Assembly (NCBI GenBank): GCA_902729315.2
Contig: LR746272.1
Coordinates: 682,001 to 746,000, forward strand
Reading direction: 5' to 3'
DNA: 64,000 bases
Source of the DNA: Spirodela intermedia
Lineage: Eukaryota; Streptophyta; Magnoliopsida; Alismatales; Araceae
Shown piece by piece: positions 14,101 through 56,929 of this stretch. How positions within the stretch are numbered: the stretch's first letter is position 1; each line of letters begins with the position of its first letter. The notes under the pieces are model-generated. The model saw only the letters and a list, made by a program, of their open reading frames with translations. It did not search any database and was not told the origin of the DNA. The translations under genes and the position numbers were made by a program.

Positions 14101-14700
14101 AAAATGAGTCAAGAGGAGACTTTGTCAAGTGTGGCTCACCACTTACACCAAACAGCACAAGGAGAGCAGATGGGCACCATGCATTTTCTCTTCTTTGTGG
14201 GCCATCTAAAAGGGTCCTTTTATGTGCTTATAAAAGGAGGCCTTTCTCCCTCTTGTAGCAAAGTAAGAGTGAACAAAAAAAGGACAGAGATAGGAAGTGC
14301 AAGAGAAGGTGGGTGCAGGAGTTCTAGAATGAGAAGTTGCCAGTTGTTTTACTGGTGAATGCCATTGGTCCTGTTGGCAGAGGGAGAGATCTATCTTCTC
14401 TGTATGTGGAGGAGGAGAGCTGTTCCTCTATGTGAGGGGATTTGAGTTTGTATAATTCTCTCCGCATATAGTGAGGCCAACGATACCATTACCTACCGAT
14501 GTAGGAGGCCAACCTCCAAATCACATTTTTTTTTTCAGTGCTTTTACTATGGGTTGATTATTCTTCCGTATCTTTACTTCATGTCATGCAAATCAAGGAG
14601 GCAACATTCTACTTCTCGGCGTGATCATATATCATTCGAGAAATATTTTTATTGTATTTTCAATGATAACGAGACAAGAAAACGGACTGAGACAGCCGAA
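14101..14700 (+). mobile_element. Copia LTR relic forming the 3' flank of P450-A
   Basis: Follows a purine tract (AAGAGGAGAC) at the end of the copia relic. The sequence includes TTCTCTCCGCATATAG and GATGTAGGAGGC, and is shared with about 24.18-24.55, 30.60-31.41, 45.24-45.56, 46.84-47.16 and 56.57-56.93 kb. Every P450 copy has it just beyond its stop codon, so it predates the duplications. It runs antisense to P450-A and may supply 3'-end or antisense transcription signals (inference). Confidence 0.6.
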
Positions 14701-14829
14701 GGTTGACTTGGCTCGTGATGCGGTTGATGTGATCTGGCAGTGGCCCTTGATAAAAGGTAGTTAGGAGTTCAAGCTCGCACCTGCCGTTTCACGACGGGGA
14801 CAGGATTTCGTGAGGTTCACATCGGGCAT

Positions 14830-16425
14830 CTAAGATCCTGGTGGCAGTCGGTATGTAGGGACGGCGAGCAGGTTTTTTGCTCTGCTCAACCTTATCCCGA
14901 ATCTCTCCGACATGTCCAAGTCTCCGGGAAGCGCCCAGTCGAAGCAGTGCACCAGCTGGGCCACGACGATCCGCACTGTCGTCAGCCCCATCTGCATGCC
15001 GGGGCACCTCCGGTTTCCAGCTCCAAAGGCGAGGAAGTCAGACTCGAGGCCATCACGATCCTCAGCCCCTCTGATGCCCCCCTCGAACCTCTCCGGGTAG
15101 AAGGCCTCCGGGTCGTCCCATTGGCTTGGATCCCTTCCCACTGCCCAGAGGTTCACAAGCACCTGGCTTCCCTTCTTAAGCTGGAAGCCGCCGGCGACAC
15201 AGTCCACCCTAGCCTCCCTGGGGATTAGGGGGATGGCCGGGTGCAGCCGCATGCTTTCCTTGATCACCATTTCCAGGTAGGGCAGCTTGGGTAGGTCTTC
15301 CTCCTCAACCACCCTATCCATGCCGACGGCCTCCTCCAGCTCATGCTGCAGCTTCCTCATCACCCGGGGGTGCCTCAGGAGCTCCGACATCGTCCACTCC
15401 ACAGTGGTTGCCGACGTGTCCGATCCCCCAGTGATCATGTCCTAATAGGATAGACAAACGTTGCGAGATGACAATAATACTTAAATAATATAATCTTATC
15501 CATTTTGTTGCCGTTGTCTCACCATGAGGATGGCCTTGAGGTTAACCCGATCATACTGTGTTCCCGTCGAAGAGAGGATCGAGGCGACGACACAGTCCTC
15601 AAGCTTCGTCCCTTCGTTCAGACTCCGGCAGTGCTTGTGGATGACCGTCTCGAAGAGGCTGTCGTAGGCCCTTCTGACGGCCTTCATTCGTCGCCGGTGT
15701 CCATTCAAGTCGAGGAATCCGATGAAGGGGATGTAGTCGTTGATGTTGAATACCCCGGTCAACTGGGTAGCTTCTTTGAGCGTCTTCTCTATTGCAGATG
15801 CGTTGCCATATACCTTGCCAAACAAAGTACGGCAGACTATGGCCAAGATCGTCGCAGTTACGGCTTCGCTGAGATCCACCGCTTTGCAGTCCCCATCGGC
15901 AGCCTTCTTCAGGGAGTACAGCAGCCGGTGAATCTCCTCATTCCTCACGCCTCGTAGGGCGTCGATGCTGCGGGTGGAGAGCATATGATCCAGGCAGAGA
16001 TTCCGGGATTCGCGCCAGTTAGACCCGCATTCGGAGGAGAGGACTCCCTTCCGCCCATAGGTGAGGTAATTGCTGACGTCGCCCGCGGGTCTGCTCATGA
16101 AGGCGGGTTCCCTGAGGAACTTCTGCGCAGAAACGAAGGACGATACTACCACCGCTTGGACGAGGCCGAGTCTGATGCCCATGACGGGCCCGTACGCCTC
16201 CGCCAACTTCCGGAGGGCCCGGTGGGGCAAGGCTCCCAAAATGCGGAGATTTCCTAGGATAGGAAGACCGGGAGGATTAGGCGGCAGCCTTAAGCTTATT
16301 CCATTGCCGATCCGAGTCGTCCTCTTTAACAATGGGAGAGCGAAGAAACGTGCCGCCGCAGCGGATGCTGCCACCACTACGGCTACCAGAAGGCTATCTG
16401 GGCTCATCCACGAGTACATCGCCAT
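14830..16425 (-). CDS. Cytochrome P450, CYP71 clan (copy A)
   Basis: Predicted ER-anchored haem-thiolate monooxygenase. Exon 1 is 16,425-15,523 (301 codons), the intron 15,522-15,442 (81 bp, GT-AG, phase 0), and exon 2 15,441-14,830 (203 codons plus stop), giving 504 residues, normal for the family. Visible in order: hydrophobic anchor (residues about 10-30), proline hinge ([12 protein letters not shown]), I-helix GGSDTS, ExxR (KESMR), PERF, and the haem loop [10 protein letters not shown] with its cysteine near residue 447. The start is the first ATG of MAMYSW, matching MAVYSW in the paralogues. An upstream in-frame ATG would add 12 residues. The overall pattern resembles CYP736/CYP71-type enzymes, but substrate is unknown. 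It is the most diverged intact copy. Confidence 0.93.
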
Positions 16426-16589
16426 ACTGGCTCCTCTGAAACTATGGCTGCTTATCTGCACGTATATTTATTGTGTGCGTGTGTTTGAGAGAGAGAGAGA
16501 GAGAGAAACGTGCCGCCGCCGCCGCTGCCACCACTACGACTACGAGAACTGGGAGCATCCACGAGTACACTGGCATGCTTGCTCTGAAA

Positions 16590-22845: not shown

Positions 22846-24175
22846 CATCCAAAATGGTTCGAACTGGCGAGACAGCCTAGTGCGACTCAAGCGGTCCAAA
22901 ATGGTTTGGACCGAAGTCTTTGGGTTGGCACTGACTAGGTGGTCGAGCCCGTTTGGGTCAGGCAGACGTGGGCCGATAGAACTGATCGGATCCAGAATCT
23001 GAACCGATAGGGATTAACCCTAGTTGGTGGACCGGAAATTGAGAGCACCAGAAACGGGCGGAGAGAGGCGGCAAAATGGGGATAGACGGACGTAACGGCA
23101 AGGCAAGCAGGCAGTGAAATGAAGGGTGGCGCCAGCAGACGGTGGAGGCAGTAGCAGACGGCGAATGTGGATGGCTGCAGTGTCGGGAGACAATGGCAGC
23201 AATAAAAAACGATGGCGAAAGAGGGATGAAAGGTAGGGATGGGTGGCGGTTGTTGGCAATGAGCAAAGATAGGAAGGCTGTGGGATTAGGTGGCTGAAGA
23301 TGATGGACAGCGGGAACATGCAGCAGCAGCAATGGAGGGTTGGCTGGCGATGGACGACGAAGGGTGGAAGCCGAGTAGTAATGTTGGAAAGACAGCAGTT
23401 TGAAGATGGTCGACGAAGGTGGCTGATGGCAGCTGGAGAACGGTGGTGGATGGATAATGGCCCTCACGGCCTCTCCTTCATGGAGCAAAGATAGTTGACC
23501 CTCTGATGCGATCCTCCCATTTTCCATCCCATTACAGAAGGGCCGTTGGGCACCAAAGAAAGGGAAGGGAGACGACAGCAGGATGTCCAAAGTCGGGCAA
23601 GCCGTAACCGCCACAAAACGGAATTCACAAGGGACCGCAGGAGACTTACAAGGGCGACAGCTTGTCAATTAAATACCTTTATAATCGGAGGCAGGAGGAG
23701 GAGAAAAAGGGAGAAAAATCTGGAGGTCAATCCCCTCGAAGTGATCATTCTGTCGTGAGTGTCTGGGTCAGGAAGTCTGAGATACGGTTCTGTTCGAGTC
23801 TGCTGTTTTATTTTTCTGTTCCTTCTAGATCGTCTGTTTTGTTCTAGGTTGAATCCTGGAATAAAAACCCCCTATTCTTCCGCACCTCAATTTTTCTCAT
23901 CCTTCTTTAGAGCGATTCATGGAATTTACCCTTCTTGAGCGAGGGGGTTCCATCACCCTCATGTTCTGTCCCTCACAGAGCAAACAGGTAATCCCCCCAA
24001 AAATGATCTCTAATCTCGTTCTAGGGCTACGTCAGCGATTTCTTACTGTTCTGAAATCAAAATACAGAAATAAAAGATTAACAATGAATAAAATCGTTCC
24101 TAAATGGGCTTGGGACAATGCTGACGATGTGAAGGTATTGGCCTGCTTCTTCGATTCCCATTAGAGAGAGGGAGA
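22846..24175 (-). mobile_element. LTR-like element, copy 2
   Basis: Near-parallel to 20,985-21,830: TGGTTCGAACTGGCGAGACAG here against TGGTTCAGACCAATGAGATGG there, followed by the same GGCGG-rich stretch and the same CTCTAATCTCGTTCTAGGGC ending. The long minus-strand frame at 22,958-23,668 is Pro/Ser/His-rich and conserved only as repeat DNA. Confidence 0.55.
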
Positions 24176-24657
24176 GATAGAGAGGAAGCATAGGAGAAGG
24201 TGGGTGTGCGAGAGTTATGGGGCAAGAAGGCATCACTTATATTATTTCTGCTCTTGTGCAGGGAGCTGCTGTCTGTTTATCGGTTAGAAAAGAGCCACCA
24301 CATATTCCTATGTGCGAGGAGTGTGAGGTTGCGTGATTTTCTCCACATCTAGTGAAGCCTACCAATGTCATTGCCCATGGATGTAGGAGCAACAGAACCA
24401 CATTTAGTTTCTTGTGTAGGTGCTTTTTCTGTAGATTGATTATCCTTCTCTATCTTTAGTTCTTGTCATTCCGGATTGAGGGGGAAACAATCTATTACTC
24501 GGAGTTGACAGTTATTCAAACAAAAAATATGCCTGGATATATATTTTTATTATATTTTAGATTGTAATTAGTCGAGAAATACAATTGAGAGAGTCAAAGT
24601 TTAACTCGGATCGTGATATTGTTGTTGTGATCATAGGTACTTAGTATAGTCTGATAT
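24176..24657 (+). mobile_element. P450 3'-flank/LTR relic, left half of an interrupted copy
   Basis: Matches the 3' flanks of the P450 genes (GAGTGTGAGGTTGCGTGATTTTCTCC..., CTAGTGAAGCCTACCAATGTC..., TAGTCGAGAAATACAA). It ends at the GATAT that is the target duplication of the copia element. Its continuation lies at 29,452-29,575. Confidence 0.7.
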
Positions 24658-30825: not shown

Positions 30826-31410
30826 CACGGGAGAAAGCAGTTATTCAGAAGCATGAAATTTTTTGAAAGATGAATGTCATGGAGAAAATAGAGTTACGAT
30901 TATAAAACTTCAAACTCTCTATAGAGAATTTGACACTATTTTTATGAAATCTGGTGAATTTATCAAGGATTTACTTTCTCGTATTTCAATATTCTCAATG
31001 AGATAAGAATATTGGGAGAAAGCGAGAGAGACAGAGACAGAGAGAGCACGGGAGAAAGCAGGTCTGCAAGAGTTCTGGAGCGAGAAGGCGTCAGTTGTAT
31101 TACTGGAGAATGTTGCTGGTCTGTCCTGTGGAGGGAGCCACCGTCTGTTCGTGGGTTAGGAGAGAGACACCACCAATTCCTACGACGGAGGAGGTGTGAG
31201 GTTTGTGTGATTTTCTCCGCATCTAATGAAGCCTACCAACGTCCTTGCCTGTGGATGTAGGAGGCAAACCTCTGAACCACATTTCATTTCTTGTGTCGGT
31301 GCTTCTGCTGTAGATTGATAATCCTTCTCTATCTTAATTTCATGCCATGGCAGATCAAGGGGACAACATTTCGTTACTCAAAGTTGACATTTGTTCTAAC
31401 AAAAAATATC
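30594..31410 (+). mobile_element. Copia LTR relic forming the 3' flank of P450-B
   Basis: Follows the RNase H relic and a purine tract. It contains a (GA)n tract near 30,792-30,825, a directly repeated GAGAGCACGGGAGAAAGCAG (30,820 and 31,045 area) and the shared CCACCGTCTGTTCGTGGGTT motif. The 30,820-31,130 part also reappears, inverted, in the palindrome spacer at 45,563-45,830. Confidence 0.6.
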
Positions 31411-31631
31411 CCTAGGTACATATCTTTATTTTATTTTAGATGGTAACTAGTCGAGAAAATACAACTGAGAGAGCCAAAGGTTGACCCGGATCCTGATACC
31501 GTTGCTATGATTTGACCATGGCCCTTGATCATAGGTAGTTAGAACAGTATGATATGCATGACCTAAAAGATAGGGTTGAAAGCGCGCGCTTGCTGTCTGG
31601 GACGGAATTTCCTGAGGTTCACATCTGGTAT

Positions 31632-33238
31632 CTAAGACCCTGGTCGCAGGCGGTAAGTAGGGACGGCGAGCAGGTTTTTGGCTCTCGCCAAGCTTAACCC
31701 GAATTTCTCCGACATGTCCAACTCGCCGGGGAGCTCCCAGTCGAAGCAGTGCACCAGTTGGGCTACGACAAACCGCACCGTCGTCAGGCCCATCTGCATG
31801 CCGGGGCACCTCCGGTTTCCGGCTCCGAAGGGGAGGAAGCCAGGCTCGAGGCCATCACGATCCTCAGCCCCGCCGCTGCTCCCCTCGAACCTCTCTGGGT
31901 AGAATGCGTCCGGGTTGACCCATTCATTCGGATCCCTTCCCATGGCCCAGAGGTTCACAACCACTTGGCTTCCTTTTTCAAACTGGAAGCCGCCAATGAC
32001 ACAGTCCTCCCGTGCCTGCCTGGGGATTAGGGGGATTACCGGGTGCAGCCGCATGCTTTCCTTGATCACCATCTCCAGGTAGGGCAGCTTCGGGAGGTCT
32101 TCCTCCTCAACCATCCTGTCCATGCCGACGGCCTCCTCCAGCTCTTGCTGCAGCTTCCTCATCACCCGGGGGTGCGTCAGGAGCTCCGACAGCGTCCACT
32201 CCACCGTGATTGCCGATGAGTCCGATCCCGCGGTGATCGTGTCCTAATAGGAAAGAAAAACAAGGCGAGATAAAAAATAATAATACTCACAGTAGTATAA
32301 TCTGATTTCTTTTCTTGTCGTTGTCTCACCATGAGGATGGCCTTGAGGTTAACCCGATCATACTGCGTTCCCATCGAAGAGAGGATCGAGGCGATCACGG
32401 AGTCCTCAACCTTCACCCCTTCGTTCAGACTCCGACAGTACTTGTCGATGACCTCCTCGAAGAGGCTATCGTAGACCCTTCTGACGGCCTTCATTCGTCT
32501 CCGAACTCCGTTCAAGTCGAGGAATCCGATAAAAGGGAGGTAGTCGTTGATGTTGAATACCCCGGCTAACTGGGTAGCTTCTCTGACCGTCTTCTGTATT
32601 GTGGCTTCGTCGCCATGTACCTTCCCGAACAGAATACGGCACACAATGGCCATGGACATCGAGGCTAAGGCTTCGCTGAGATCGACCGGTTTGTGGCTTC
32701 CCTCGGCAGCCTTCTTCAGGGAGCCCAAGAGCCGCTGAATCTTCTCGTTCCTCACGCCCCGGAAGGCTTGGATCTTGCGGGTGGAGAGCATATGGGATAG
32801 GCAGAGGTTCCGGGATTCGCGCCAGGTATCCCCGTATTCGGAGGCGAGGACCCCCTTCTGCTGCCCATAGGTGAGGTAAACGGTGACGTCGCCCCCGGGT
32901 CGGTTCGTGAAGGCAGGCTCCCTGAGGAACTTCTGCGCAGCAGCGAAGGACGATACCATCACCACTCGGACGAAGCCGAGCTTGATGCCCATGACGGTCC
33001 CGTACGCCTCCGCCAGTTTCCGGAGGGTCTGATGTGGTAAGGTTCCCAAAGCGAGGAGATTCCCCAAAATAGGAAGACCGGGAGGGGATGGCGGCGGCCT
33101 GAAGCTTTCTCCACGGCCGATCTGGGTCGTCTTCTTCCTCAACAACGGGAGTGCGAAGAAACGTGCGGCCGCAGCGGCCGCTGCCACCGCTATGGCTACG
33201 AGAAGGGTATCTGGGGCCATCCACGAGTACACCGCCAT
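31632..33238 (-). CDS. Cytochrome P450, CYP71 clan (copy B)
   Basis: Intact two-exon gene: exon 1 33,238-32,330 (303 codons), intron 32,329-32,244 (86 bp, GT-AG, phase 0), exon 2 32,243-31,632 (203 codons plus stop), 506 residues. Anchor at residues about 10-35 (Ala-rich), hinge [14 protein letters not shown]-helix AGSDSS (residues 308-313), E365xxR368, PERF at 419-422, haem loop [10 protein letters not shown] with C449. The start is MAVYSW, the first ATG after a (GT)n(GA)n leader. Predicted ER-bound monooxygenase of unknown substrate. The usual I-helix threonine is serine here and in C/C', unlike A and D. It is closely related to the palindrome copies but not identical. Confidence 0.95.
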
Positions 33239-33324
33239 ACTTTGCTCCTCTTAAACTATGGCTACTTACCTGCATATATAGATATATATATATATATATA
33301 TGATGTGTGCACGTGTGGGATGTG

Positions 33325-33391
<67 letters not shown>

Positions 33392-33830
33392 GTTTCATCG
33401 TGCTTTGATCGGCCGGCCTACATGACTCTCGGAGTTATTGGTCCGAAGGGGATAGAAGAAACGTGCCGCGGCTTCTGCCAGCCCTACGGCCACCAGGACT
33501 GGGATCATCCACCAGTACACCGGCATACTTCCTCCCCTGAAATTATGGCTTCTTACCTGAAACATATATTTATTTATTAAGAAAGAGATGGAGAGACAGA
33601 GACAGAAACAGAGACACAGACAAAGACAGAACTCGCGGTGACCTTGCTGGACTGGGGTTTAAACTCCTTCAAAGTCATCACTCGCTCGGAGCCAGACGAG
33701 TCATCGTTACCTTGCGAATCCGGCACTACATGTCTTACCGAGTTATTGCTCGCTAGGAGAGAGACCTAGCCGTGACATAGCTGCTAGGAGACAGACCTTG
33801 CCGTGACGTCGCCGGCCGCACTTACCAGCA
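33239..33830 (-). repeat. 5' leader/anchor module upstream of P450-B (one extra module)
   Basis: An extra anchor copy starts at ATG 33,526 (MPVYWWMIPVLVAVG...AAARFF), behind a leader similar to those at the other genes. Between it and the gene lie (TA)n near 33,283-33,301 and (GT)n(GA)n at about 33,327-33,389. A further leader without anchor codons lies at 33,680-33,770. Confidence 0.75.
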
Positions 33831-37560: not shown

Positions 37561-38890
37561 CAGCGACTAAGAATTAGAGGAAACAATTCTCGGAGTTCTT
37601 TCACCCTTTTTCACTCAATAAATATTTGAGAACAGAATTTGATCGTCATCACTGAGGATAGACTTGGCACCTGCCCTGCTCTTCCTGTTAAACCAGGAGA
37701 ACCTGAAACAGTTCGAGCGGGGGACGTAAAGAATGTATCAAATCGAACATTTCTCTGCGAGAGGCAGAGAAGTCGTGAAGTATTGGACAGCCGGTACGGC
37801 AATGCATCTCACTCATCCCCAACCTGAAAATATACTGGCAACATCAGCACAGACACCACTAGTAAATCTTTTCAACAGAACCCAACAACCTTCTGTGCGC
37901 AATGTAGAACAACAAAATCATTAAGGTAAAAGAATTACTTCGGCATCAATATAATGAATTCACAATTAAGGACAATATCAGGAAAACTTGAAGATCATAA
38001 AAACAGAAGAATTACTTCAAGCACCTTGACAACATCACTGATTCCTTCGATTTGTCCATAAAAAACTGTTTTTATCTCTGCTTCAAAAGAAAATGTCGAG
38101 AGGATAAATTTATGTGTTGCTGACAACAAGAGGTTTGCCATCTTTAAACCCCATATGTCCTTTAGTGCATCTTAAAAGAAATTCATGATGACCCTACACG
38201 CAAAAACAGAAAAATAAAAACCAAGGAAAACTCAGAAAGAAAATTAATATCGCCCAGAATCAAGTTCTAGTGCTCAAGTGATAATATCTTCATTAAAAAA
38301 TAAGATCCATTTAGGATTAACTTGAGCAAGCATTCCCAACATCTGCTGGGGTAAGAAAGAAGAGGAGAATAACCTCCTGTCTCTCAATGGCCTTCACTAA
38401 CCGCTCTCTCTGATATGGGATGCGAAGTCTTGTGGACATACGAGTATCCTACAGAAAAGGTGTTGCAAATCGAATAAAAAATGCCCATAAATAAAGCAAA
38501 AAGCGAGAAAAAATAAGTGAAATATAAGCAGGACATCTCACAAACATACCATGTAGTTCAAAACTGGGAGGTCCGGGTGGTGGTTCTGTCTTAAAACCAT
38601 GTCAATTTGTTAATAAGCTATGAAATGATACTCTAACCTAAAACAAACTATCAAATAAAAAATATTGAAAAAGATAACGACTTGAATTAAAAAAATCACA
38701 GTTCACAAACTTGTGGAATGAAAAGATGAAATTAATGTGAAAAAAAGGGCAAATGAAAGTGAACAATAGCAAGCATCAGTTTTGCCCATCATACCTTCGA
38801 AACTGATCGAGACAAAAGTGGATTCTCAAGAGTCATACTATTTTTTGCAAACTCTTTTTTTCCACCATACTTAAAGTCTTCTTAGTCATG

Positions 38891-40063: not shown

Positions 40064-40864
40064 TTGTGGCTCTGCCACTCCTCCTTGACCTTGTTTCTCC
40101 TTGGATAATGCTCTAGTCCTAGGAATTCAAGATCAAGGTGAATTTAATGCAGAAATCAATATAGGTTTTTGAACCTTCTCTTGTGCATGCAAATCAGCAA
40201 CTATTAGGATATAGTTCCAGCAAAAAATTAGTTTTTAATTCTTAGGAGAGGTGTTGTTGTAATGTACAAAGAGGCAACAAAAATAGAGTGAATTAAAGCA
40301 ATAAATGTCAAGGTAAGATGATCAAAATTGATATAAATTCAATCTAAAATATAAATGGTACCTTGGTTTGCTTTTAATTCTTTCTGTAACAAAGACTAAT
40401 AAAAAAAAACTCAAAATCAACCAAAATACAAATCAAAACCACCCTAGATTGACACTACAACTCCCCGACAACAACACTAGTTTCTGATGCCCTTAAATCA
40501 CTGATATTAAGATTGATAAAAAATAATAATATATAGACTGAATTTTCAACAAGAAAAATAAGATGTATAGTGGTCAATCCATGCGAGTTGTCTAATCATT
40601 GATGATTCTAATGTAAAGATATATCGGTTGAGATTGAGGAAGAATTAAGTGAAAGAGATAGAAGAGAGTTAACTTTAGAAAACAAGAGAGAGATTAAATT
40701 AATGTCACCTTGATGATTTTCAATCGCCAAAGAAGGGATACTAAGATAGGAAACATATAATGATCATAAGATGAAGGGGTTTGATCATCTAGATAAAGAT
40801 AGAAAGAATTTACTCCTACTCTCTACCTAATCGTGGCGTTCTCTTCTCTACCCTAATATCACCG
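40064..40864. other. Unassigned DNA up to the palindrome edge
   Basis: AT-rich, with short frames only. Likely gypsy interior. It ends at 40,864 where the left palindrome arm starts. Confidence 0.4.
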
Positions 40865-41395
40865 GGTACCTTCATTCTTCATCCGCAAGCTCACCACTCA
40901 AGTCTTTTCGTTCACAAATGTTCAGCTTTTGGACAGGTAAATTGGTTGTAAAAAAAGAAAAAATGCCACGATTGACTGAAACCTTCATCTCCTATCATTG
41001 ACTTAATCTTTTGCGTCTCTTAAGTCTTTTGTTGCGCTGTGAGTGCTGCTCGTTCTTGAGCGAGGAGTACATGAAGTCGGGGCTTGCCGAGCTGGAGAAA
41101 TGGATTGTAAATGCCACGGAAGAGGTGGGCATCACATGGTCCTGTCCTTTGTTCACCGTATGGTTTGTCCGACAGCTGATGAATCTCGTCTCTACGTACA
41201 GTTCTCAGGGACCTCTTGGCATGAGTTGAAATATATCCGCCAAGCAGTAGGTTCCCTAGTATGGAATCTCAAGCCCGGGTTCAATATCTGGATGTTCCGC
41301 ATGCCATTTCATTTTATCTTGCCTTCGCGTTCCAGGGGATACATCAGAAGCGGATAAAGTCTCTCAAAGAGATCAGATAGAATCTTTTTCCAGTG
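40865..41395 (+). pseudogene. Myosin XI tail fragment (left arm)
   Basis: Corresponds to the myosin exons at 61,077-61,147, 60,887-60,986, 60,744-60,800 and 60,602-60,658: [20 protein letters not shown], then [13 protein letters not shown], then IHQKR.KSL.EIR followed by a stop. Only a few exons survive and the last has an in-frame TAG, so it is a relic. It has the opposite orientation to the intact gene because this arm is inverted. Confidence 0.85.
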
Positions 41396-41406
41396 TCTAC
41401 CATGTA

Positions 41407-42826
41407 TGATGCAGGGCAGGATGAAGAATAACTAGGCTAACCCTAAATAAGTAACCTAATTGATTCTCAATATTAGATCTAGGAGTCTAAGAAAGTTCAC
41501 TAAGATAAGATTAAGTGATTTCTCACGAGATTTGATATGAATAAAGTCGATGTGTTTGACAAATCGTCGAGGATTTTAGAGTGATTAACCCACAATAAGT
41601 GGACTACATGACTATCAAGGGGTTTTCACAAACTCTTTACCAGTTAATCCATAAATGGACCTATATAAGATTCACTCAACGGCAATTGGAAGATAAGATA
41701 CTAAATAAGCAAAATCCTCAAACCAAAAAGAAAAAGGATTTAGCGATAGCGTTGTTGCCGGAATGAATGGCTAGTCGGTGGATGAGCACAGAGTGAAGCT
41801 GAAACCCTCAATTGGTCATAGTTGGCCGTGTGGACAGTTGACTAGGTGCTGATTGTCGACTGTTCATCGTTGACTGGCTTCCTGCTGACCGGGTTCGGAT
41901 TGTTGACAGTTGGCAGGTTCGGGTCTTGCGGAACTGGGCCAGTCCAGTCCGGTGGGTCCAGAGTCATGAACTGGTGGGGATTTAATCTGAACCGGTGAGA
42001 TGGGGGCGGGGAAATTGGCAAAAAACAGCCGGAGTGAGAGGTGGCAAAACGGGTGAAAGGGCGGAACAGCGGGGCAGAGCGGCGGTTCAGGAGGAGGTGG
42101 CACGGTGGTGGTAGGGCTGGTGACGTGGGCAATGGCTCTAGACAGCGGCGAAGGTATGAATTGTTCCCCATGTATCGTTGGCAGGCGGTGGACGACGACA
42201 ACAGTCGATGGTGATCGTGGCGGCAGCAGCAGCATCAGATAGCAACGGCAATGGACGGTGGACAGAGGGCGATAGATGGTGGCAGAAGGATGATGAACGG
42301 CGGATGATCGACGAAGGACGGTGATAGGTGGCTGGTAGATGGCGAACTAGCAGTGCAGCAACGACTAGGTGAAAAGACTAGGGTATAGAAAGATAGAGGT
42401 TGAAGACGAGACAAAGGAGAGTGTCGAGAAGAAGAAGATTAGAATAGAAAGAATGGTTCATGTGTTACATTGTAAGGGTCAGTTTATATAGAGAAGTCAT
42501 GTGGTAGAATTGGGCAAGGAGCCGTTGCTCTTATGAAAATATTGCTCTAGTTTGTCTTGGATGACAGCTGGTGCCGTAACGGCTTCTTGATCCTTTACGG
42601 CACTTGCTTGAATGGGTTATGTGTCCTCAACACTAGGCAGGCAAATAATGTGCCGGCAGATAGTGGGGTGGTGGACATGATCTTCCTTCTCTTGGTTTTC
42701 TAGGGTTACATGAAGTTATTTATAACTTCTCGAATGCATAATTAAAGAAATAAATAATTACTAATAAAACAAGATCCTCTCTTAATCAGCTTGGCGACGT
42801 GGACGTGATCCGTTCTCCTCGGTCTC
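41407..42826 (-). mobile_element. LTR-like element in the left arm
   Basis: Mirror copy of 49,576-50,995, bounded on the inside by the P450 leader and on the outside by the myosin fragment. It begins TGATGCAGGGCAGG. The 119- and 123-codon frames (41,842-42,235 minus) are Pro/Ser-rich products of a CCACCG-rich repeat and are not convincing genes. Confidence 0.55.
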
Positions 42827-42839
42827 CATTATTAACCCG

Positions 42840-43434
42840 GTTTATTTGTGAGTGGAGTGCAGCCGGCTTTGACACGGCAAGGTTCCTCTCCTCGCGAGCA
42901 ATAACTCTGTAAGACATGCTGTGCCGGCGTAGCAAGGTGATGTTGATGACACGTCTGGCTCCGAGGGAGCGAGGACTTTGAACGAGTATGAACCCCAGTC
43001 CGGCAGAGTCACGGCGAATTCTCTCTCTCTCGATAAATAAATAAATATTCAGTGCAGCATGTATGCCGGTGTACTCGTGGAAGCAGCCGCGGCAGCGGGA
43101 GGTTTCTTCCGTCTCCTCGAGAGGACTAAAAAGGTCCTTACATGTCTCACTCTTACTAAATAAATATATATTTCAGGTAAGCAGCAATAATTTCATAGGA
43201 CCAAGTATGGCGGTATACTCGTGGATGATCCCAATTCCCGTAGCCGTAGTGGTGGAAGCGGCCGCGGCGGCGGTACGTGGCTTCTCTCCTAGAGAGCAAT
43301 AACTCGGAAAAATGTTATGCCGGCCTATGAAGGTAGGATGTCACGTCCCTCTCTCGCTCACACACACCACACGAACACACTATATATGTGTATACACATG
43401 AAAGTGAGCAGCCATGGTTTCAGAGGAGCAAAGT
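42840..43434 (+). repeat. 5' leader/anchor module array upstream of P450-C (two extra modules)
   Basis: Three iterations of leader plus anchor start: ATG 43,063 (MPVYSWKQPRQ, anchor frame disturbed), ATG 43,207 (MAVYSWMIPIPVAVVVEAA, anchor preserved) and the gene ATG 43,435. The first two lie in one 79-codon frame. Leaders repeat the string GAGCAATAACTC.G.AA..ATG.T.TGCCGG at 42,895 and 43,294. These upstream frames could reduce translation of the main frame or serve as alternative starts; that is inference. Confidence 0.85.
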
Positions 43435-45041
43435 ATGGCAGTGTACTCGTGGATGGCCCCAGATACCCTTCTCGTAGCCATAGCGGTGGCAGCGGCCGCT
43501 GCGGCCGCACGTTTCTTCGCTCTCCCGTTGTTGAGGAAGAAGACGACCCAGATCGGCGGTGGAGAAAGCTTCAGGCCGCCGCCATCCCCTCCCGGTCTTC
43601 CTATTTTGGGGAATCTCCTCGCTTTGGGAACCTTACCACATCAGACCCTCCGGAAACTGGCGGCGGCGTACGGGCCCGTCATGGGCATCAAGCTCGGCTT
43701 CGTCCGAATGGTGGTGGTATCGTCCTTCGCTACTGCGCAGAAGTTCCTCAGGGAGCCCGTCTTCATGGACCGGCCAGGGGGCGATATCAGCGCTTACCTC
43801 ACCTATGGGCAGCAGAAGGGGATCCTGAACAGCGAATACGGGACTAACTGGCGCGAATCCCGGAACCTCTGCCTGTCTCATATGCTCTCCACCCGCAAGA
43901 TCCAAGCCTTCCGGGGCATGAGGAACGCGGAGATTCACCGGCTCCTGCACTTCCTGAAGAAGGCTGCCGAGGGGGACAGCAAACCTGTCGATCTCACCGA
44001 AGCCGTAGCCTCGACGACCATGGCCATTGTGTTCCGTATTCTGTTCGGGAAGATATCTGGGGACGAAGCTACCATACAGAAGACGGTCAAAGAAGCTACC
44101 CAGTTAGCCGGGGTATTCAACATCAACGACTACCTCCCTTTTATCGGATTCCTCGACTTGAACGGAGTCCGGAGACGAATGAAGGCCGTCAGAAGGGTCT
44201 ACGATAGCCTCTTCGAGGAGGTCATCGACAAGTACTGTCGGAGTCTGAACGAAGGGATGAAGGTTGAGGACTCCGTGATCGCCTCGATCCTCTCTTCGAT
44301 GGGAACGCAGTATGATCGGGTTAACCTCAAGGCCATCCTCATGGTGAGACAACGACAAGAAAAGAAATCAGATTATACTACTGTGAGTATTATTATTTTT
44401 TATCTCGCCTTGTTTTTCTTTCCTATTAGGACACGATCACCGCGGGAACGGATTCGTCGGCAACCGCGGTGGAGTGGACGATGTCGGAGCTCTTGAGGCA
44501 CCCCCGGGTGATGAGGAAGCTGCAGCAGGAGCTGGAGGAGGCCGTCGGCATGGACAGGATGGTTGAGGAGGAAGACCTCCCCAGGCTGCACTACCTGGAG
44601 ATGGTGATCAAGGAAAGCATGCGGCTGCACCCGGTCGCCCCCCTCATCCCCAGGGCTGTCCGGGAGGACTGTGTCGTCGGCGGCTTCCAGTTTGAAAAAG
44701 GAAACCAAGTGGTTGTGAACCTCTGGGCCATGGGAAGGGATCCGAGTGAATGGGTCGATCCGGAGGCCTTCTACCCGGAGAGGTTCGAGGGGGCCGGCGG
44801 CGGGTCTGAGGATCGTGATGGCCTCGACTCTGGCATCCTCCCCTTCGGAGCTGGAAACCGGAGGTGCCCCGGCATGCAGATGGGTCTGACGACGGTGCGG
44901 TTCGTCGTAGCCCAGCTGGTGCACTGCTTCGACTGGGAGCTCCCCGGCGAGTTGGACATGTCGGAGAAATTCGGGTTAAGCTTGGCGAGAGCCAAAAACC
45001 TGCTCGCCGTCCCTACTTACCGCCTGCGACCAGGATCTTAG
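43435..45041 (+). CDS. Cytochrome P450, CYP71 clan (copy C, left arm)
   Basis: Intact: exon 1 43,435-44,343 (303 codons), intron 44,344-44,429 (86 bp, GT-AG, phase 0), exon 2 44,430-45,041 (203 codons plus stop), 506 residues. Anchor at residues about 10-35, hinge [14 protein letters not shown]-helix AGTDSS, ExxR at 365-368, PERF at 419-422, haem loop [10 protein letters not shown] with C449. An in-frame ATG at 43,414 would add seven residues, but MAVYSW matches the family start. It is identical to C' and close to B, from which it differs around the K-helix region ([14 protein letters not shown] against [14 protein letters not shown]), a substrate-recognition area in plant P450s. Predicted ER monooxygenase of unknown substrate. 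Confidence 0.95.
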
Positions 45042-45562
45042 ATGTGGACCTCGGAAATTCCGTCCCAGACAGCAAGCGCGCTCTTTCAACCCTATCTTTT
45101 AGGTCATGTATATCATACTGTCCTAACTACCTATGATCAAGGGCCATGGTCATATCACAGCAATGGTATCACGATCCGGGTCAACCTTTGGCTCTCTCAG
45201 TTGTATTTTCTCGACTAGTTACCATCTAAAATAAAATAAAGATATGTACCTAGGGATATTTTTTGTTAGAACAAATGTCAACTTTGAGTAACGAAATGTT
45301 GTCCCCTTGATCTGCCATGGCATGAAATTAAGATAGAGAAGGATTATCAATCTACAGCAGAAGCACCGACACAAGAAATGAAATGTGGTTCAGAGGTTTG
45401 CCTCCTACATCCACAGGCAAGGACGTTGGTAGGCTTCATTAGATGCGGAGAAAATCACACAAACCTCACACCTCCTCCGTCGTAGGAATTGGTGGTGCCT
45501 CTCTCCTAACCCACGAACAGACGGTGGCTCCCTCCACAGGACAGACCAGAAACATTCTCCAG
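45042..45562 (-). mobile_element. P450-C 3' flank with copia LTR relic (left arm)
   Basis: After about 200 bp of 3' flank it carries the shared LTR relic (GATGTAGGAGGC and TTCTCCGCATCTAATG on the minus strand). It includes GATAT at the position used as target by the copia element in the 24.6 kb copy. Confidence 0.6.
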
Positions 45563-46839
45563 TAGTACAACTGACGCCTTCTCGCTCCAGAATTCTTGCA
45601 GACCTGCTTTCTCCCGTGCTCTCTCTCTCTCTCTCTCTCTCTCGCTTTCTCCCAATATTCTTATCTCATTGAGAATATTGAAATACGAGAAAGTAAATCC
45701 TTGATAAATTCACCAGATTTCATAAAAATAGTGTCAAATTCTCTATAGAGAGTTTGAAGTTTTATAAACGTAACTCTATTTTCTCCATGACATTCATCTT
45801 TCAAAAAATTTCATGCTTCTGAATAACTTGTTGCTTTAGTAAGTTATGAAAAAATAGTTTGTAAAACTAATTGTTGTAACACAATAAGGCCTTAGCATCT
45901 TTTTTCTATTTTTTTTATTATCTTATTTAGAACTCTCTCATTCTTTACAACCATTCTCAACTAAACCCATAAGTCTTGTGAAATAAAAAATATTTTCATG
46001 TTAATACTCTAGATATCGTATTTCTCTCTGTTGAAGTGTGAGATAGGAGATTGTAAGAATTTGAGGGGGGTTGCCATTTGCCATTCTCAAAGTCAATAGC
46101 TATAACTCTTCATAAAAACTTCAAACAACACCTTCACATTCCTTGCAATGTGAGAAAATCTTTACAAATGCCCAGAAAGTTCACCAAACTCGCTTTTGAA
46201 TTTCCTTGATGTTGCTGTGGTTTCCATGGTAACAAAACACCCAATACACGAACCCTGCATTTTGATACCACTTTGTAGGGCAATAAGAATGAAATATGTG
46301 GACAGAATAGATGGATTTAGGGGAGATAATCGTTGGAGAGGAGGGGAGGAGAAAGGAGAATTTCACACCGAAAAAACCCTTAGCTTTAAATTTCACAACT
46401 ATTTTAAAAGAGGAGAGATAAAGGGTATTTTAAGGTTATATTAAAACCCTATGTGGGCGGCCAGACTTATAGCCCAATAAGGATAAAAGAGAGGACCAAT
46501 AAAGATAAAAAGAAATATTACAATACATCGTCGGGGCGACTAAAGCATTGGTCGTAATAGATTGACATGAATACATAGAAGCATTTATCGTCCCAGGGTG
46601 GCTAGTGCGGTATATCTGGCTAAACAGTCGACACCTTTCGGCGACTCGAACAGATCAGAGGAAGGGCAGCGGAGAGCGAGAGAGAGATCGAATCACTCAA
46701 ACGGAGAGATCGAATCGCCCTTGTAGCCAAACTAGAGTGAAGAAAAAGGAGGGGGGGAGCGAGAGAGAGAGAGAGAGAGGAAGCATGAGGAAGGTGGGGT
46801 GTGCAAGAGTTCTGGAGCAACAAGGCATCACTTGTATTG
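45563..46839. other. Palindrome spacer (1,277 bp)
   Basis: Unpaired centre. 45,563-45,830 continues the LTR relic and matches the unit B flank (30,840-31,130, inverted). 45,831-46,600 is AT-rich and includes a GCATTTTGATACCA motif near 46,258 (minus-strand primer-site-like), suggesting an LTR end. 46,600-46,720 resembles a myosin exon-intron stretch (GTGCGGTATATCTG and GCGACTCGAACAGAT, as near 60,480-60,530). 46,723-46,839 is a second LTR-relic piece with (GA)n. The two inner flanks therefore differ from each other. The frames at 46,181-46,444 match nothing known. Confidence 0.7.
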
Positions 46840-47360
46840 CTGGAGAATGTTTCTGGTCTGTCCTGTGGAGGGAGCCACCGTCTGTTCGTGGGTTAGGAGA
46901 GAGGCACCACCAATTCCTACGACGGAGGAGGTGTGAGGTTTGTGTGATTTTCTCCGCATCTAATGAAGCCTACCAACGTCCTTGCCTGTGGATGTAGGAG
47001 GCAAACCTCTGAACCACATTTCATTTCTTGTGTCGGTGCTTCTGCTGTAGATTGATAATCCTTCTCTATCTTAATTTCATGCCATGGCAGATCAAGGGGA
47101 CAACATTTCGTTACTCAAAGTTGACATTTGTTCTAACAAAAAATATCCCTAGGTACATATCTTTATTTTATTTTAGATGGTAACTAGTCGAGAAAATACA
47201 ACTGAGAGAGCCAAAGGTTGACCCGGATCGTGATACCATTGCTGTGATATGACCATGGCCCTTGATCATAGGTAGTTAGGACAGTATGATATACATGACC
47301 TAAAAGATAGGGTTGAAAGAGCGCGCTTGCTGTCTGGGACGGAATTTCCGAGGTCCACAT
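46840..47360 (+). mobile_element. P450-C' 3' flank with copia LTR relic (right arm)
   Basis: Mirror of the left-arm flank. The two P450 genes end 2.3 kb apart, facing each other, with this flank, the spacer and the partner flank between them. Confidence 0.6.
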
Positions 47361-48967
47361 CTAAGATCCTGGTCGCAGGCGGTAAGTAGGGACGGCGAGC
47401 AGGTTTTTGGCTCTCGCCAAGCTTAACCCGAATTTCTCCGACATGTCCAACTCGCCGGGGAGCTCCCAGTCGAAGCAGTGCACCAGCTGGGCTACGACGA
47501 ACCGCACCGTCGTCAGACCCATCTGCATGCCGGGGCACCTCCGGTTTCCAGCTCCGAAGGGGAGGATGCCAGAGTCGAGGCCATCACGATCCTCAGACCC
47601 GCCGCCGGCCCCCTCGAACCTCTCCGGGTAGAAGGCCTCCGGATCGACCCATTCACTCGGATCCCTTCCCATGGCCCAGAGGTTCACAACCACTTGGTTT
47701 CCTTTTTCAAACTGGAAGCCGCCGACGACACAGTCCTCCCGGACAGCCCTGGGGATGAGGGGGGCGACCGGGTGCAGCCGCATGCTTTCCTTGATCACCA
47801 TCTCCAGGTAGTGCAGCCTGGGGAGGTCTTCCTCCTCAACCATCCTGTCCATGCCGACGGCCTCCTCCAGCTCCTGCTGCAGCTTCCTCATCACCCGGGG
47901 GTGCCTCAAGAGCTCCGACATCGTCCACTCCACCGCGGTTGCCGACGAATCCGTTCCCGCGGTGATCGTGTCCTAATAGGAAAGAAAAACAAGGCGAGAT
48001 AAAAAATAATAATACTCACAGTAGTATAATCTGATTTCTTTTCTTGTCGTTGTCTCACCATGAGGATGGCCTTGAGGTTAACCCGATCATACTGCGTTCC
48101 CATCGAAGAGAGGATCGAGGCGATCACGGAGTCCTCAACCTTCATCCCTTCGTTCAGACTCCGACAGTACTTGTCGATGACCTCCTCGAAGAGGCTATCG
48201 TAGACCCTTCTGACGGCCTTCATTCGTCTCCGGACTCCGTTCAAGTCGAGGAATCCGATAAAAGGGAGGTAGTCGTTGATGTTGAATACCCCGGCTAACT
48301 GGGTAGCTTCTTTGACCGTCTTCTGTATGGTAGCTTCGTCCCCAGATATCTTCCCGAACAGAATACGGAACACAATGGCCATGGTCGTCGAGGCTACGGC
48401 TTCGGTGAGATCGACAGGTTTGCTGTCCCCCTCGGCAGCCTTCTTCAGGAAGTGCAGGAGCCGGTGAATCTCCGCGTTCCTCATGCCCCGGAAGGCTTGG
48501 ATCTTGCGGGTGGAGAGCATATGAGACAGGCAGAGGTTCCGGGATTCGCGCCAGTTAGTCCCGTATTCGCTGTTCAGGATCCCCTTCTGCTGCCCATAGG
48601 TGAGGTAAGCGCTGATATCGCCCCCTGGCCGGTCCATGAAGACGGGCTCCCTGAGGAACTTCTGCGCAGTAGCGAAGGACGATACCACCACCATTCGGAC
48701 GAAGCCGAGCTTGATGCCCATGACGGGCCCGTACGCCGCCGCCAGTTTCCGGAGGGTCTGATGTGGTAAGGTTCCCAAAGCGAGGAGATTCCCCAAAATA
48801 GGAAGACCGGGAGGGGATGGCGGCGGCCTGAAGCTTTCTCCACCGCCGATCTGGGTCGTCTTCTTCCTCAACAACGGGAGAGCGAAGAAACGTGCGGCCG
48901 CAGCGGCCGCTGCCACCGCTATGGCTACGAGAAGGGTATCTGGGGCCATCCACGAGTACACTGCCAT
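47361..48967 (-). CDS. Cytochrome P450, CYP71 clan (copy C', right arm)
   Basis: Exon 1 48,967-48,059, intron 48,058-47,973 (86 bp), exon 2 47,972-47,361; 506 residues identical to copy C, including the silent positions inside all shared frames. It therefore has the same anchor, hinge, AGTDSS, ExxR, PERF and haem-cysteine loop. It is convergent with copy C. Read-through of either gene would make RNA containing its own reverse complement. If the palindrome is an assembly artefact, only one of C and C' exists. Confidence 0.93.
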
Positions 48968-49562
48968 ACTTTGCTCCTCTGAAACCATGGCTGCTCACTT
49001 TCATGTGTATACACATATATAGTGTGTTCGTGTGGTGTGTGTGAGCGAGAGAGGGACGTGACATCCTACCTTCATAGGCCGGCATAACATTTTTCCGAGT
49101 TATTGCTCACTAGGAGAGAAGCCACGTACCGCCGCCGCGGCCGCTTCCACCACTACGGCTACGGGAATTGGGATCATCCACGAGTATACCGCCATACTTG
49201 GTCCTATGAAATTATTGCTGCTTACCTGAAATATATATTTATTTAGTAAGAGTGAGACATGTAAGGACCTTTTTAGTCCTCTCGAGGAGACGGAAGAAAC
49301 CTCCCGCTGCCGCGGCTGCTTCCACGAGTACACCGGCATACATGCTGCACTGAATATTTATTTATTTATCGAGAGAGAGAGAATTCGCCGTGACTCTGCC
49401 GGACTGGGGTTCATACTCGTTCAAAGTCCTCGCTCCCTCGGAGCCAGACGTGTCATCAACATCACCTTGCTACGCCGGCACAGCATGTCTTACAGAGTTA
49501 TTGCTCGCGAGGAGAGGAACCTTGCCGTGTCAAAGCCGGCTGCACTCCACTCACAAATAAAC
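48968..49562 (-). repeat. 5' leader/anchor module array upstream of P450-C'
   Basis: Mirror of 42,840-43,434: upstream ATGs at 49,195 and 49,339 with the gene at 48,967. It carries the only arm-to-arm difference I noticed, changing Arg to Ser near the end of the 79-codon upstream frame. Confidence 0.85.
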
Positions 49563-49575
49563 CGGGTTAATAATG

Positions 49576-50995
49576 GAGACCGAGGAGAACGGATCACGTC
49601 CACGTCGCCAAGCTGATTAAGAGAGGATCTTGTTTTATTAGTAATTATTTATTTCTTTAATTATGCATTCGAGAAGTTATAAATAACTTCATGTAACCCT
49701 AGAAAACCAAGAGAAGGAAGATCATGTCCACCACCCCACTATCTGCCGGCACATTATTTGCCTGCCTAGTGTTGAGGACACATAACCCATTCAAGCAAGT
49801 GCCGTAAAGGATCAAGAAGCCGTTACGGCACCAGCTGTCATCCAAGACAAACTAGAGCAATATTTTCATAAGAGCAACGGCTCCTTGCCCAATTCTACCA
49901 CATGACTTCTCTATATAAACTGACCCTTACAATGTAACACATGAACCATTCTTTCTATTCTAATCTTCTTCTTCTCGACACTCTCCTTTGTCTCGTCTTC
50001 AACCTCTATCTTTCTATACCCTAGTCTTTTCACCTAGTCGTTGCTGCACTGCTAGTTCGCCATCTACCAGCCACCTATCACCGTCCTTCGTCGATCATCC
50101 GCCGTTCATCATCCTTCTGCCACCATCTATCGCCCTCTGTCCACCGTCCATTGCCGTTGCTATCTGATGCTGCTGCTGCCGCCACGATCACCATCGACTG
50201 TTGTCGTCGTCCACCGCCTGCCAACGATACATGGGGAACAATTCATACCTTCGCCGCTGTCTAGAGCCATTGCCCACGTCACCAGCCCTACCACCACCGT
50301 GCCACCTCCTCCTGAACCGCCGCTCTGCCCCGCTGTTCCGCCCTTTCACCCGTTTTGCCACCTCTCACTCCGGCTGTTTTTTGCCAATTTCCCCGCCCCC
50401 ATCTCACCGGTTCAGATTAAATCCCCACCAGTTCATGACTCTGGACCCACCGGACTGGACTGGCCCAGTTCCGCAAGACCCGAACCTGCCAACTGTCAAC
50501 AATCCGAACCCGGTCAGCAGGAAGCCAGTCAACGATGAACAGTCGACAATCAGCACCTAGTCAACTGTCCACACGGCCAACTATGACCAATTGAGGGTTT
50601 CAGCTTCACTCTGTGCTCATCCACCGACTAGCCATTCATTCCGGCAACAACGCTATCGCTAAATCCTTTTTCTTTTTGGTTTGAGGATTTTGCTTATTTA
50701 GTATCTTATCTTCCAATTGCCGTTGAGTGAATCTTATATAGGTCCATTTATGGATTAACTGGTAAAGAGTTTGTGAAAACCCCTTGATAGTCATGTAGTC
50801 CACTTATTGTGGGTTAATCACTCTAAAATCCTCGACGATTTGTCAAACACATCGACTTTATTCATATCAAATCTCGTGAGAAATCACTTAATCTTATCTT
50901 AGTGAACTTTCTTAGACTCCTAGATCTAATATTGAGAATCAATTAGGTTACTTATTTAGGGTTAGCCTAGTTATTCTTCATCCTGCCCTGCATCA
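49576..50995 (+). mobile_element. LTR-like element in the right arm, probably a solo LTR
   Basis: About 1.4 kb between P450 leader DNA and myosin DNA, ending CCCTGCATCA. A TATATAA box is at 49,912, followed by a T/C-rich leader and a CCACCGTC-rich stretch, as expected for an LTR promoter and R/U5. Related copies lie at 20,443-21,830, 22,846-24,175 and 56,930-57,500. The start is set by loss of similarity to the P450-A upstream DNA. No target duplication was confirmed. Confidence 0.5.
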
Positions 50996-51006
50996 TACAT
51001 GGTAGA

Positions 51007-51556
51007 CACTGGAAAAAGATTCTATCTGATCTCTTTGAGAGACTTTATCCGCTTCTGATGTATCCCCTGGAACGCGAAGGCAAGATAAAATGAAATGGCA
51101 TGCGGAACATCCAGATATTGAACCCGGGCTTGAGATTCCATACTAGGGAACCTACTGCTTGGCGGATATATTTCAACTCATGCCAAGAGGTCCCTGAGAA
51201 CTGTACGTAGAGACGAGATTCATCAGCTGTCGGACAAACCATACGGTGAACAAAGGACAGGACCATGTGATGCCCACCTCTTCCGTGGCATTTACAATCC
51301 ATTTCTCCAGCTCGGCAAGCCCCGACTTCATGTACTCCTCGCTCAAGAACGAGCAGCACTCACAGCGCAACAAAAGACTTAAGAGACGCAAAAGATTAAG
51401 TCAATGATAGGAGATGAAGGTTTCAGTCAATCGTGGCATTTTTTCTTTTTTTACAACCAATTTACCTGTCCAAAAGCTGAACATTTGTGAACGAAAAGAC
51501 TTGAGTGGTGAGCTTGCGGATGAAGAATGAAGGTACCTGTGATAAGAAATAAAAGG
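51007..51556 (-). pseudogene. Myosin XI tail fragment (right arm and just beyond)
   Basis: Mirror of the left-arm fragment, in the same orientation as the intact myosin gene. It runs through the palindrome edge to about 51,556, then joins DNA matching 37,560-37,670 of the unit B myosin pseudogene (51,560-51,680). It is thus a collapsed relic with an internal deletion. Confidence 0.82.
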
Positions 51557-51680
51557 GGCCTAGTAGCAGTCACTAGGAATTGGAGGAAACAATTTGAGTT
51601 CATTTACCCTTTTTCACTGAATAAATATTTGAGAACAGAGTTTGACATCTAAAATTTGACAATTATCCGTGAGGATCAAC

Positions 51681-54699: not shown

Positions 54700-54834
54700 T
54701 GAGCAATAACTCGTGAGGAGATGATGATGATGACACATCTAACTCTAAGCGAGGGAAGACGTTGAATGAGTATGAACCTCAGTCCAAGAAGGTTACAACG
54801 AATCCTCTCTCTCTCTCATATTTTCAGAGCAACT
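54700..54834 (+). repeat. Single leader module of P450-D
   Basis: GAGCAATAACTCGTGAGGAG, GATGACACATCTAACTC and AATGAGTATGAACCTCAGTCC match the outermost leader of copies C/C', but here the leader joins the gene start directly. The array therefore has one module only. Confidence 0.75.
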
Positions 54835-56418
54835 ATGGCGGTGTACTCATGGATGGCCCCAGAATCCCTTCTCGTAGCCGTAGCAGTGGCAGCGGCATGT
54901 TTCTTCACTCTCCCATTGTTGCGGAAGAGGAGGACTCTAATTGACGATGGAGTAAGCTTTAGGGTTCTGCCAGGCCCTCCTGGTATTCCTATCCTTGGGA
55001 ATCTCCTCAGTTTGGGAACCTTGCCTCACCAAGCCCTCCGGAAGCTGGCGGAGGTGTACGGGCCGGTCATGGGCATCGAAATCGGCCTCGTCAAAGTGGT
55101 GATTGTATCGTCCTTTGCTGATGCGCAGAAGTTACTCAGGGCCTTCGCGAACCGGCCCTCGAGCAACTCCAGCGTTTACCTCGCCTATGGGCGGAAGGGG
55201 GTCGTCTTCTCAGACTATGGGAATATCTGGCGCGAATCCCGCAACCTCTGCCTTGTTCACATGCTCTCCATCCGAAAGGTCGAAGCCTTCCGGAACGTGA
55301 GGAAGGGGGAGATTCACCGGCTCCTGCACTCCCTGAAGAAGGCTGCAGAGGAGGACCCCAAGCCGGTCGATCTCAGCGAAGCCGCAGCCTCGACGATCAT
55401 GGCAATCGCGTGCCGTACTTTTTTCGGGGAGGAATATGGCAACGAATATGCCATATATATTAGACGGTCAGAGAAGCTTTGCTGCTGGCCGGGGTATTCA
55501 ACATCAACGACTACATCCCCTTCACGGATTCCTCGGCTTGAACAGAGTCAGGAGACGAATGAAGGCCGTCAGAAGGGTCTACGATGGCCTCTTCGAGGAG
55601 GTCATCGACAAGTAGTGTCGGAGTCTGAACGAAGGGATGAAGGCTGAGGACTCCGTGATCGGCTCGATCCTCTCTTCGATGGGAACACAGTATGATGGGC
55701 TAACCTCAAGGCCATCCTCATGGTGAGACAACGACAAGAAGAGATGTCAGATTACATTGCCGAAGTATTCTTCTCATCTCACAGCGTTTGTCTCTCCTAT
55801 TAGGACACGATCACCGCGGGATCGGACACGTCCGCAACCACGGTGGAGTGGATGATGTCGGAGCTCCTGAGGCACCCCCGGGTGATGAGGAAGGTGCAGC
55901 AGGAGCTGGAGGAGGTCGTCGGCATGGACAGGGTGGTTGAGGAGGAAGACCTCCCGAAGCTGCCCTACCTGGAGATGGTGATCAAGGAAAGCATGCGGCT
56001 GCACCCAGTCATCCCTCTGATCCCCAGGGAGGCCCGGGAGTACTGTGTCGCCAATGGCATCCAGTTTGAGAAAGGAACCCAGGTGTTTGTCAACATCTGG
56101 GCCATGGGAAGGGACCCGAATGAATGGGTCAACCCTGAGGCCTTCTACCCAGAGAGGTTCGAGGCGGGCAGCGGGGGGGGGGCTGGGGATCGCGATAGCC
56201 TCGAGTCTGGCTCCCTCGCCTTCGGAGCCGGAAACCGGAGTTGCCCCGGCATGCTGATGGCTCTGACGACGGTGCGGATCATTGTGACCCAGCTGGTGCA
56301 TTGCTTCGACTGGGAACTCTCCGGAGAGTTGGACATGTCGGAGAGATTCGGGTTAAACTTGGCCAGAGCCAAAAACCTGCTCGTCGTACCTACCTACCGC
56401 CTTCCACCAGGATCTTAG
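54835..56418 (+). pseudogene. Cytochrome P450 pseudogene (copy D)
   Basis: Start [10 protein letters not shown]; exon 1 is open to about 55,460, where a small insertion (GCCATATATATTAGACGG against GCTACCATACAGAAGACGG in C) shifts the frame. A 1 bp deletion near 55,532, a stop in the ATCGACAAGTAG codon run (55,604-55,615) and another 1 bp deletion near 55,697 follow. Exon 2 (55,804-56,418) is open and keeps AGSDTS, ExxR, PERF and FGAGNRSCPG. The open second exon suggests that the damage is fairly recent. It is the only copy outside the palindrome on the plus strand. Confidence 0.92.
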
Positions 56419-56429
56419 ATGCCAGATGA

Positions 56430-56929
56430 GGACCTAAGGAAGTTCTGTCCCCGACGTGAAACGGCAAGCGTGAGCTTGATCCCCACGTTTTGGGTCATTT
56501 ATATCACCCTTTGCCTCTTTCAGTCTGATTTCTCGACTAGTTGTCATATAAAATAAAAGAAAGATATTTACCTAGGGATATTTTTTGTTGGAACAAGGGT
56601 CAACTCCAAGTAACAAAAAGTTATCCCCTTGATCCGTCATGACACAGTATAGATAGAGAAAGATAATCAATCCACAGTTCAAGGATCGAACAGAAAAAAC
56701 TAAACATTGTTCAGAGATTCGCCTCCACATCGACAAGTAACGACGTCAGTAGACTTCACTGAATGCTAATATCACGCTCCCTTGCAAATTGGGATTGGCG
56801 GTTCCTGTTTTCTAACCCACAAACAGACGGTAGCTCACTGCACAAGTAAGACTAGCAACATTTTAAAGCAAGACGAGTGACACTTCCTCACTCTAGAACA
56901 CCTCCACCAGGCTTTTCTTATGCTTCCTC
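56430..56929 (-). mobile_element. Copia LTR relic forming the 3' flank of P450-D
   Basis: Contains CGACTAGTTGTCATATAAAATAA, CCTAGGGATATTTTTTGTT and ACAAACAGACGGTAGCTC, matching the 3' flanks of C and B. It is truncated by the element that starts at 56,930. Confidence 0.6.

Follow-up and report, generated by a model that had tools for sequence, protein, structure and literature searches.

A 64,000-nucleotide window of the duckweed Spirodela intermedia (assembly GCA_902729315.2, contig LR746272.1, forward-strand positions 682,001 to 746,000) contains a nearly perfect palindrome of 10.7 kb with two identical cytochrome P450 (P450) genes arranged tail to tail. Coordinates are those of the window unless a contig is named. 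On balance we consider it probable that this is a real palindrome within an active P450 cluster, made by homology-directed repair that copied between inverted paralogues.

Arm identity and gene content

An earlier note on this DNA had described the arms as pairing at a coordinate sum of 92,402 with no indel and one substitution, and the recomputed base-by-base pairing agreed exactly: 4,697 of the 4,698 positions are identical, there are 0 indels and the one mismatch is 43,293 versus 49,109 (Table 1). The inverted arms, more than 99% identical, flank a short, unlike spacer of 1,277 bp, as the arms of a palindrome do. Outward of 40,864 the pairing drops to chance level, and inward of 45,563 it is weaker, still non-random. 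Looser pairing joins 40,865-45,667 with 46,735-51,537 at 99%, and gapped alignment joins 40,857-45,646 with 46,758-51,544 at 99.58%. The genome searched comprises 136.5 Mb in 32 contigs, the window lying on the one labelled C9 (C9:682001-746000). Of the ten matches scored there for the arm's initial 1,001 bp, two were perfect, namely the two arms themselves. Within 264 kb around the window the palindrome was the only pair of at least 95% identity and at least 300 bp, and no Rfam family matched the window at gathering thresholds.

Both arms contain an open-frame P450 gene, gene C on the plus strand and gene D on the minus strand, with their 3' ends facing. Gene C encodes 506 residues in two exons separated by an 86-bp intron and has no internal stop. 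Both exons matched Pfam PF00067 in a scan made on the left arm, and the open reading frames (ORFs) and the 1,521-bp coding sequence of the right arm are identical to those of the left, which bears out the earlier description of two identical P450 genes tail to tail. The cysteine haem-binding motif that is the hallmark of cytochromes P450 was found in the arm protein as a stretch of ten residues. They had also rightly been called plant genes, the three best protein matches being Spirodela intermedia proteins (89, 78 and 73% identity). The 117 non-Spirodela proteins among the best 120 matches listed are 37-51% identical, and the second exon alone reaches up to 63%. Membership of a P450 subfamily by rule takes more than about 55% identity over the protein; assignment to CYP736A or CYP71AU was considered and rejected, the 37-51% of the non-Spirodela matches missing this threshold. 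Since 3,177 of the 4,698 bp of the arm (about two thirds) lie outside the coding sequence of this gene and are equally identical, protein-level selection is not the cause of the arm identity.

The gene was also compared with a second clone. Protein P0121 of clone 7747 is of the C/D type: its residues 1-55 are identical to C/D, and over the other exon (203 columns) it differs by 12 gap columns and 4 mismatches, all at one place, which looks like a gap in the gene model. At the level of this protein comparison, P0121 shows that the C/D gene type exists in another clone and assembly. P0121 belongs to a two-member cluster, perhaps, though not necessarily, made up of both copies.

Edges of the arms

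The inner edges carry much of the argument. Perfect identity evidently stops inside an inverted P450 3' flank that had already diverged, because homology continues beyond it for about 82 bp at 82%, with an ancestry that differs between the two sides. On the left, 45563-45828 is 97% like the 3' flank of P450 copy B (30839-31102), and on the right the inner flank is 80-82% identical to B and C. Such an edge would arise if two older P450 units had lain inverted, their 3' flanks parted by an old repeat, and if repair had copied one unit onto the other over 4.7 kb, that is, the gene and 2.6 kb upstream of it. As the inner edge lies within 82% homology, repair would have begun by pairing in the diverged 3' flank.

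Identity ending inside older homology is seen at the inner edge and is absent at the outer edge. The dispersed repeat that adjoins the left arm is broken at the junction, since other copies align further: among three repeat copies compared, two pairs align 155 and 254 bp beyond the junction point. The lost half of this repeat was not found in 264 kb of the region with the three copies as queries. Copying would have ended here, in a non-homologous join to the broken repeat. Strand invasion followed by long copying and end joining is expected to leave one homologous and one non-homologous end, and a process resembling break-induced replication finished by end joining, or a long gene conversion, may have operated. 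The broken repeat at the left outer edge would also suit a recent inverted duplication produced simply by template switching at microhomology, in which older homology played no role; the inner edge would then lie by coincidence inside an 82-bp stretch that is homologous on both sides, and we regard this origin as highly improbable.

Outside the right arm, the context of the cluster appears to be retained: 51541-51556 is an exact match of 16 bp to 61153-61168, and 51566-51645 is 85.5% identical to 37560-37642 (83 columns). Compared in the palindrome sense, on opposite strands, the outer flanks gave short weak matches of 46 bp at most; on the same strand they matched over up to 224 bp at 70-86%, which belongs to the cluster's older direct repeats. 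The two sides give contrary indications, the right arm being native on the outside and the left arm being continuous with B-like sequence on the inside. Under repair-driven copying, this would call for a second conversion in the opposite direction or, more simply, for a single subsequent crossover between the arms, inverting the 1.3-kb spacer.

Other P450 copies and conversion in the cluster

The window contains further P450 copies (Table 1), and two of them correspond without substitution to annotated S. intermedia proteins, copy B to P0001 and copy A to P0002. The earlier statement that the remaining copies diverge by at least several per cent stands on average (B 90.8%, E 82.7% and A 80.7% identity), but not along the whole of copy B, which has exact stretches of up to 325 bp. 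In a permutation test for conversion, with C representing both arms and gapped columns dropped, the longest concordant run between B and the arm lineage covered 38 of 391 variable sites (p 0.0008), and none of the remaining five pairings of A, B, C and E stood out (p 0.29 to 0.96). Between C and B, non-synonymous divergence (dN) is 0.059 and synonymous divergence (dS) 0.098. We read the concordant run and the exact stretches as showing that copy B carries patches of putative conversion shared with the arm lineage.

Conversion in the cluster is also what would be expected of an older palindrome whose arms have been held identical through repeated arm-to-arm gene conversion. Judging by the diverged inner flank, the inverted 3' flanks predate the identity, and the small differences just past the left edge could be unconverted remnants. 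A single copying event, together with the flip, nevertheless suffices for the data, and we consider repeated conversion of an older palindrome unlikely.

Several other elements were observed in the window. Part of copy E (54766-56418), with its seemingly frame-shifted first exon, is annotated as the 255-residue protein P0122. A tandem array of five 202-bp units occupies 19319-20319, with a related stretch at 59616-59992. Short exon-like pieces lie at 60600-61796, at 34445-35129 and at the outer ends of both arms; we tentatively take them to be from a myosin XI tail. In Pfam, one related ORF at 61 kb matched only DIL, below the cut-off (E 0.098).

Table 1. Features of the palindrome and its surroundings (window coordinates).
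Feature	Position	Strand	Remarks
Left arm (C)	40865..45562	+	4,698 bp; pairs base by base with 46840-51537 at coordinate sum 92,402
Right arm (D)	46840..51537	-	4,698 bp; mirror partner of left arm
Sole arm-to-arm mismatch	43293, partner 49109		Upstream of the start codon at 43435
P450 gene C	43435..45041	+	Exon 43435-44343, intron 44344-44429, exon 44430-45041; PF00067
P450 gene D	47361..48967	-	Coding sequence same as gene C
Left inner flank	45563..45646	+	~82% to right inner flank; ends in CT repeat (45619-45651)
Spacer core	45647..46707	.	Old dispersed repeat, many genome copies at 66-87%
Right inner flank	46758..46839	-	Homologous P450 3' flank, closest 24163-24243 (85%)
Dispersed repeat adjoining left arm	40484..40860	+	Broken off at junction
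Right outer flank	51538..51645	.	Cluster context retained
P450 copy A	14283..16504	-	About 80% to arms; 14833-16425 gives annotated protein P0002
Relic of P450 3' flank	24163..24631	.	78-79% to arms
P450 copy B	30839..33588	-	Open frame; 90.8% to left arm; exact patches up to 325 bp
P450 copy E	54827..56506	+	About 82.7% to arms; first exon seems frame-shifted

Near-identical pairs elsewhere and the question of an artefact

Four families were scanned in the assembly (matches: P450 96, NB-ARC 127, 2OG oxygenase 52 and UDPGT 64), the counts for large families being lower bounds, and pairs of equal score within 100 kb were picked by eye. This gave at least 3 inverted pairs (in the window, on C4 and on C7), which were checked by sequence, and at least 6 direct pairs (on C8, three times on C16, on C13 and on C4), which were counted from equal scores alone; two inverted pairs were left uncounted, one of equal score on C8 whose members lie 345 kb apart and one of nearly equal UDPGT scores on C9 (75.1 and 74.7 bits). 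Near-identical inverted copies are not singular in this assembly, and the counts give no sign of inverted pairs outnumbering direct ones.

The pair on C4 is a second tail-to-tail P450 palindrome (C4:5509980-5519261 / 5527517-5536798), with arms of 9,282 bp that differ by 3 mismatches, a spacer of 8,255 bp and an indel of about 30 bp at the outer edge. It weakens the earlier remark that such a palindrome would be unusual, the same assembly having this second one with longer arms. The two are alike in their tail-to-tail P450 genes and near-identical arms, whereas the C4 palindrome differs in the length of its spacer and in that 8 more bases match past its inner edge and no older homology was seen there. 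Within its spacer lies a segment that resembles the P450 region of its own arms at 76%. The inverted NB-ARC pair on C7 (C7:6905871-6911596 / 6956001-6961726) measures 5,726 bp with 7 mismatches (99.88%), its copies lying ~44 kb apart; it is open at the inner end of the compared stretch and is perhaps longer. On C16 (C16:2297179-2348584), two pairs of NB-ARC fragments (2297179/2344118 and 2301364/2348303) lie on the same strand with an identical offset of 46,939 bp, a pattern that a direct segmental duplication would leave.

A fold-back read error leaves little or no spacer and no diverged homology at the edges. This form of artefact is disfavoured by the 1,277-bp spacer and the diverged 82-bp flank, and repair-driven copying between inverted paralogues would fit the observed structure better than a spacerless fold-back. 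Of the three origins that the earlier note had allowed (a very recent event, gene conversion or a product of assembly), the first two are favoured by the edges and by the conversion in copy B, and the third loses ground in its fold-back form.

A different assembly error would be homogenisation, by which the hybrid assembler merged two real, slightly different inverted copies into a single consensus, or a copy was wrongly inserted. The MaSuRCA hybrid assembly of nanopore and Illumina data is described as going from 191.9 Mb to 136.6 Mb with duplicates of heterozygous regions filtered (PMC7645714), and the further near-identical inverted pairs in the same assembly are also in line with such an error. 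However, identity gives way sharply to 82% homology, a level of difference at which reads ought to resolve the copies; moreover, the spacers of 1.3 and 8.3 kb are unlike fold-back reads, and the arms of the C4 palindrome do differ, by 3 substitutions and the indel of about 30 bp. Homogenisation therefore seems to us rather improbable. For clone 8410, from which, judging by size and content, the assembly of this window was made, 307,111 nanopore reads of at least 10 kb totalling 9.96 Gb are reported (PMC7645714); by division, these reads average about 32 kb, which is enough to span 10.7 kb.

Several points weigh against a real palindrome made by repair. The homology at the inner edge spans just 82 bp, roughly one third of which is CT repeat; the left outer edge is without homology past about 8 bp, as after a plain inverted duplication; and the cluster context outside the right arm is known from two short matches (16 and 83 columns). 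The conversion test takes variable sites as exchangeable and leaves out columns with gaps, and we infer the spacer flip from the ancestry of the flanks. Among the best 120 protein matches listed, C and D are not present as full-length proteins, whereas A and B are. P0121 attests a C/D-type gene in clone 7747, not two in inverted order, and the palindrome itself is known here from assembled sequence alone.

Age, meaning and comparison with known systems

For outdoor lines of S. polyrhiza, 7.92e-11 and 2.38e-10 mutations per site per generation were reported (PMC6423293), and a further estimate is 8.39e-11 (PMC7642947). Taking the former two rates, and assuming that the mismatch is real and that the S. 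polyrhiza rates are valid in S. intermedia, the single mismatch dates the last full identity of the arms very roughly to 1.3e6 or 4.5e5 generations ago; the 95% Poisson interval spanning both rates is wide, about 10^4 to 7.5 x 10^6 generations. Spirodela intermedia is described as propagating mainly asexually (PMC7645714). If real, this would be a palindrome of open P450 genes in a mainly asexual plant whose sister species, S. polyrhiza, mutates very slowly, and with three inverted pairs in one assembly, ectopic conversion could be put directly to the test in a clonal plant. A wider idea, which we hold to be quite doubtful, is that repair between arms both builds inverted tail-to-tail gene palindromes in this mainly clonal duckweed and maintains their identity, preserving and spreading P450 copies in the absence of sex; the arms would also flip the spacer, and read-through transcripts might form hairpins that tune the family.

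A literature search on plant palindromes, Spirodela small RNA, tail-to-tail silencing and P450 conversion returned no title or abstract opening on a duckweed P450 palindrome or on this locus, full texts being outside its scope. Gene-bearing palindromes with conversion are already known in plants, and what may be added here is the clonal host. The palindromes of the willow W chromosome (Salix purpurea; PMC7023750) share with the present one the gene-bearing inverted arms and the conversion among copies; four 20-kb arms are described there as >99% identical, and palindrome W.P1 has a spacer of 2.6 kb. In willow, as described in that source, the arms measure about 20-73 kb, lie on a sex chromosome and were supported by read depth and a second species, whereas here the arms measure 4.7 kb and lie in a P450 cluster of one assembly. 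The soybean GmIRCHS locus (pseudoCHS; PMC13051633) is likewise an inverted repeat formed by one gene of a plant biosynthetic family; by that account natural RNA silencing of that family is linked to it, whereas in Spirodela both copies are open-frame and known from DNA alone. The palindromes of the human Y chromosome, as described in PMC7023750, share the arm-to-arm conversion that keeps gene copies alike. They differ from the duckweed P450 palindrome in size, chromosome and age.

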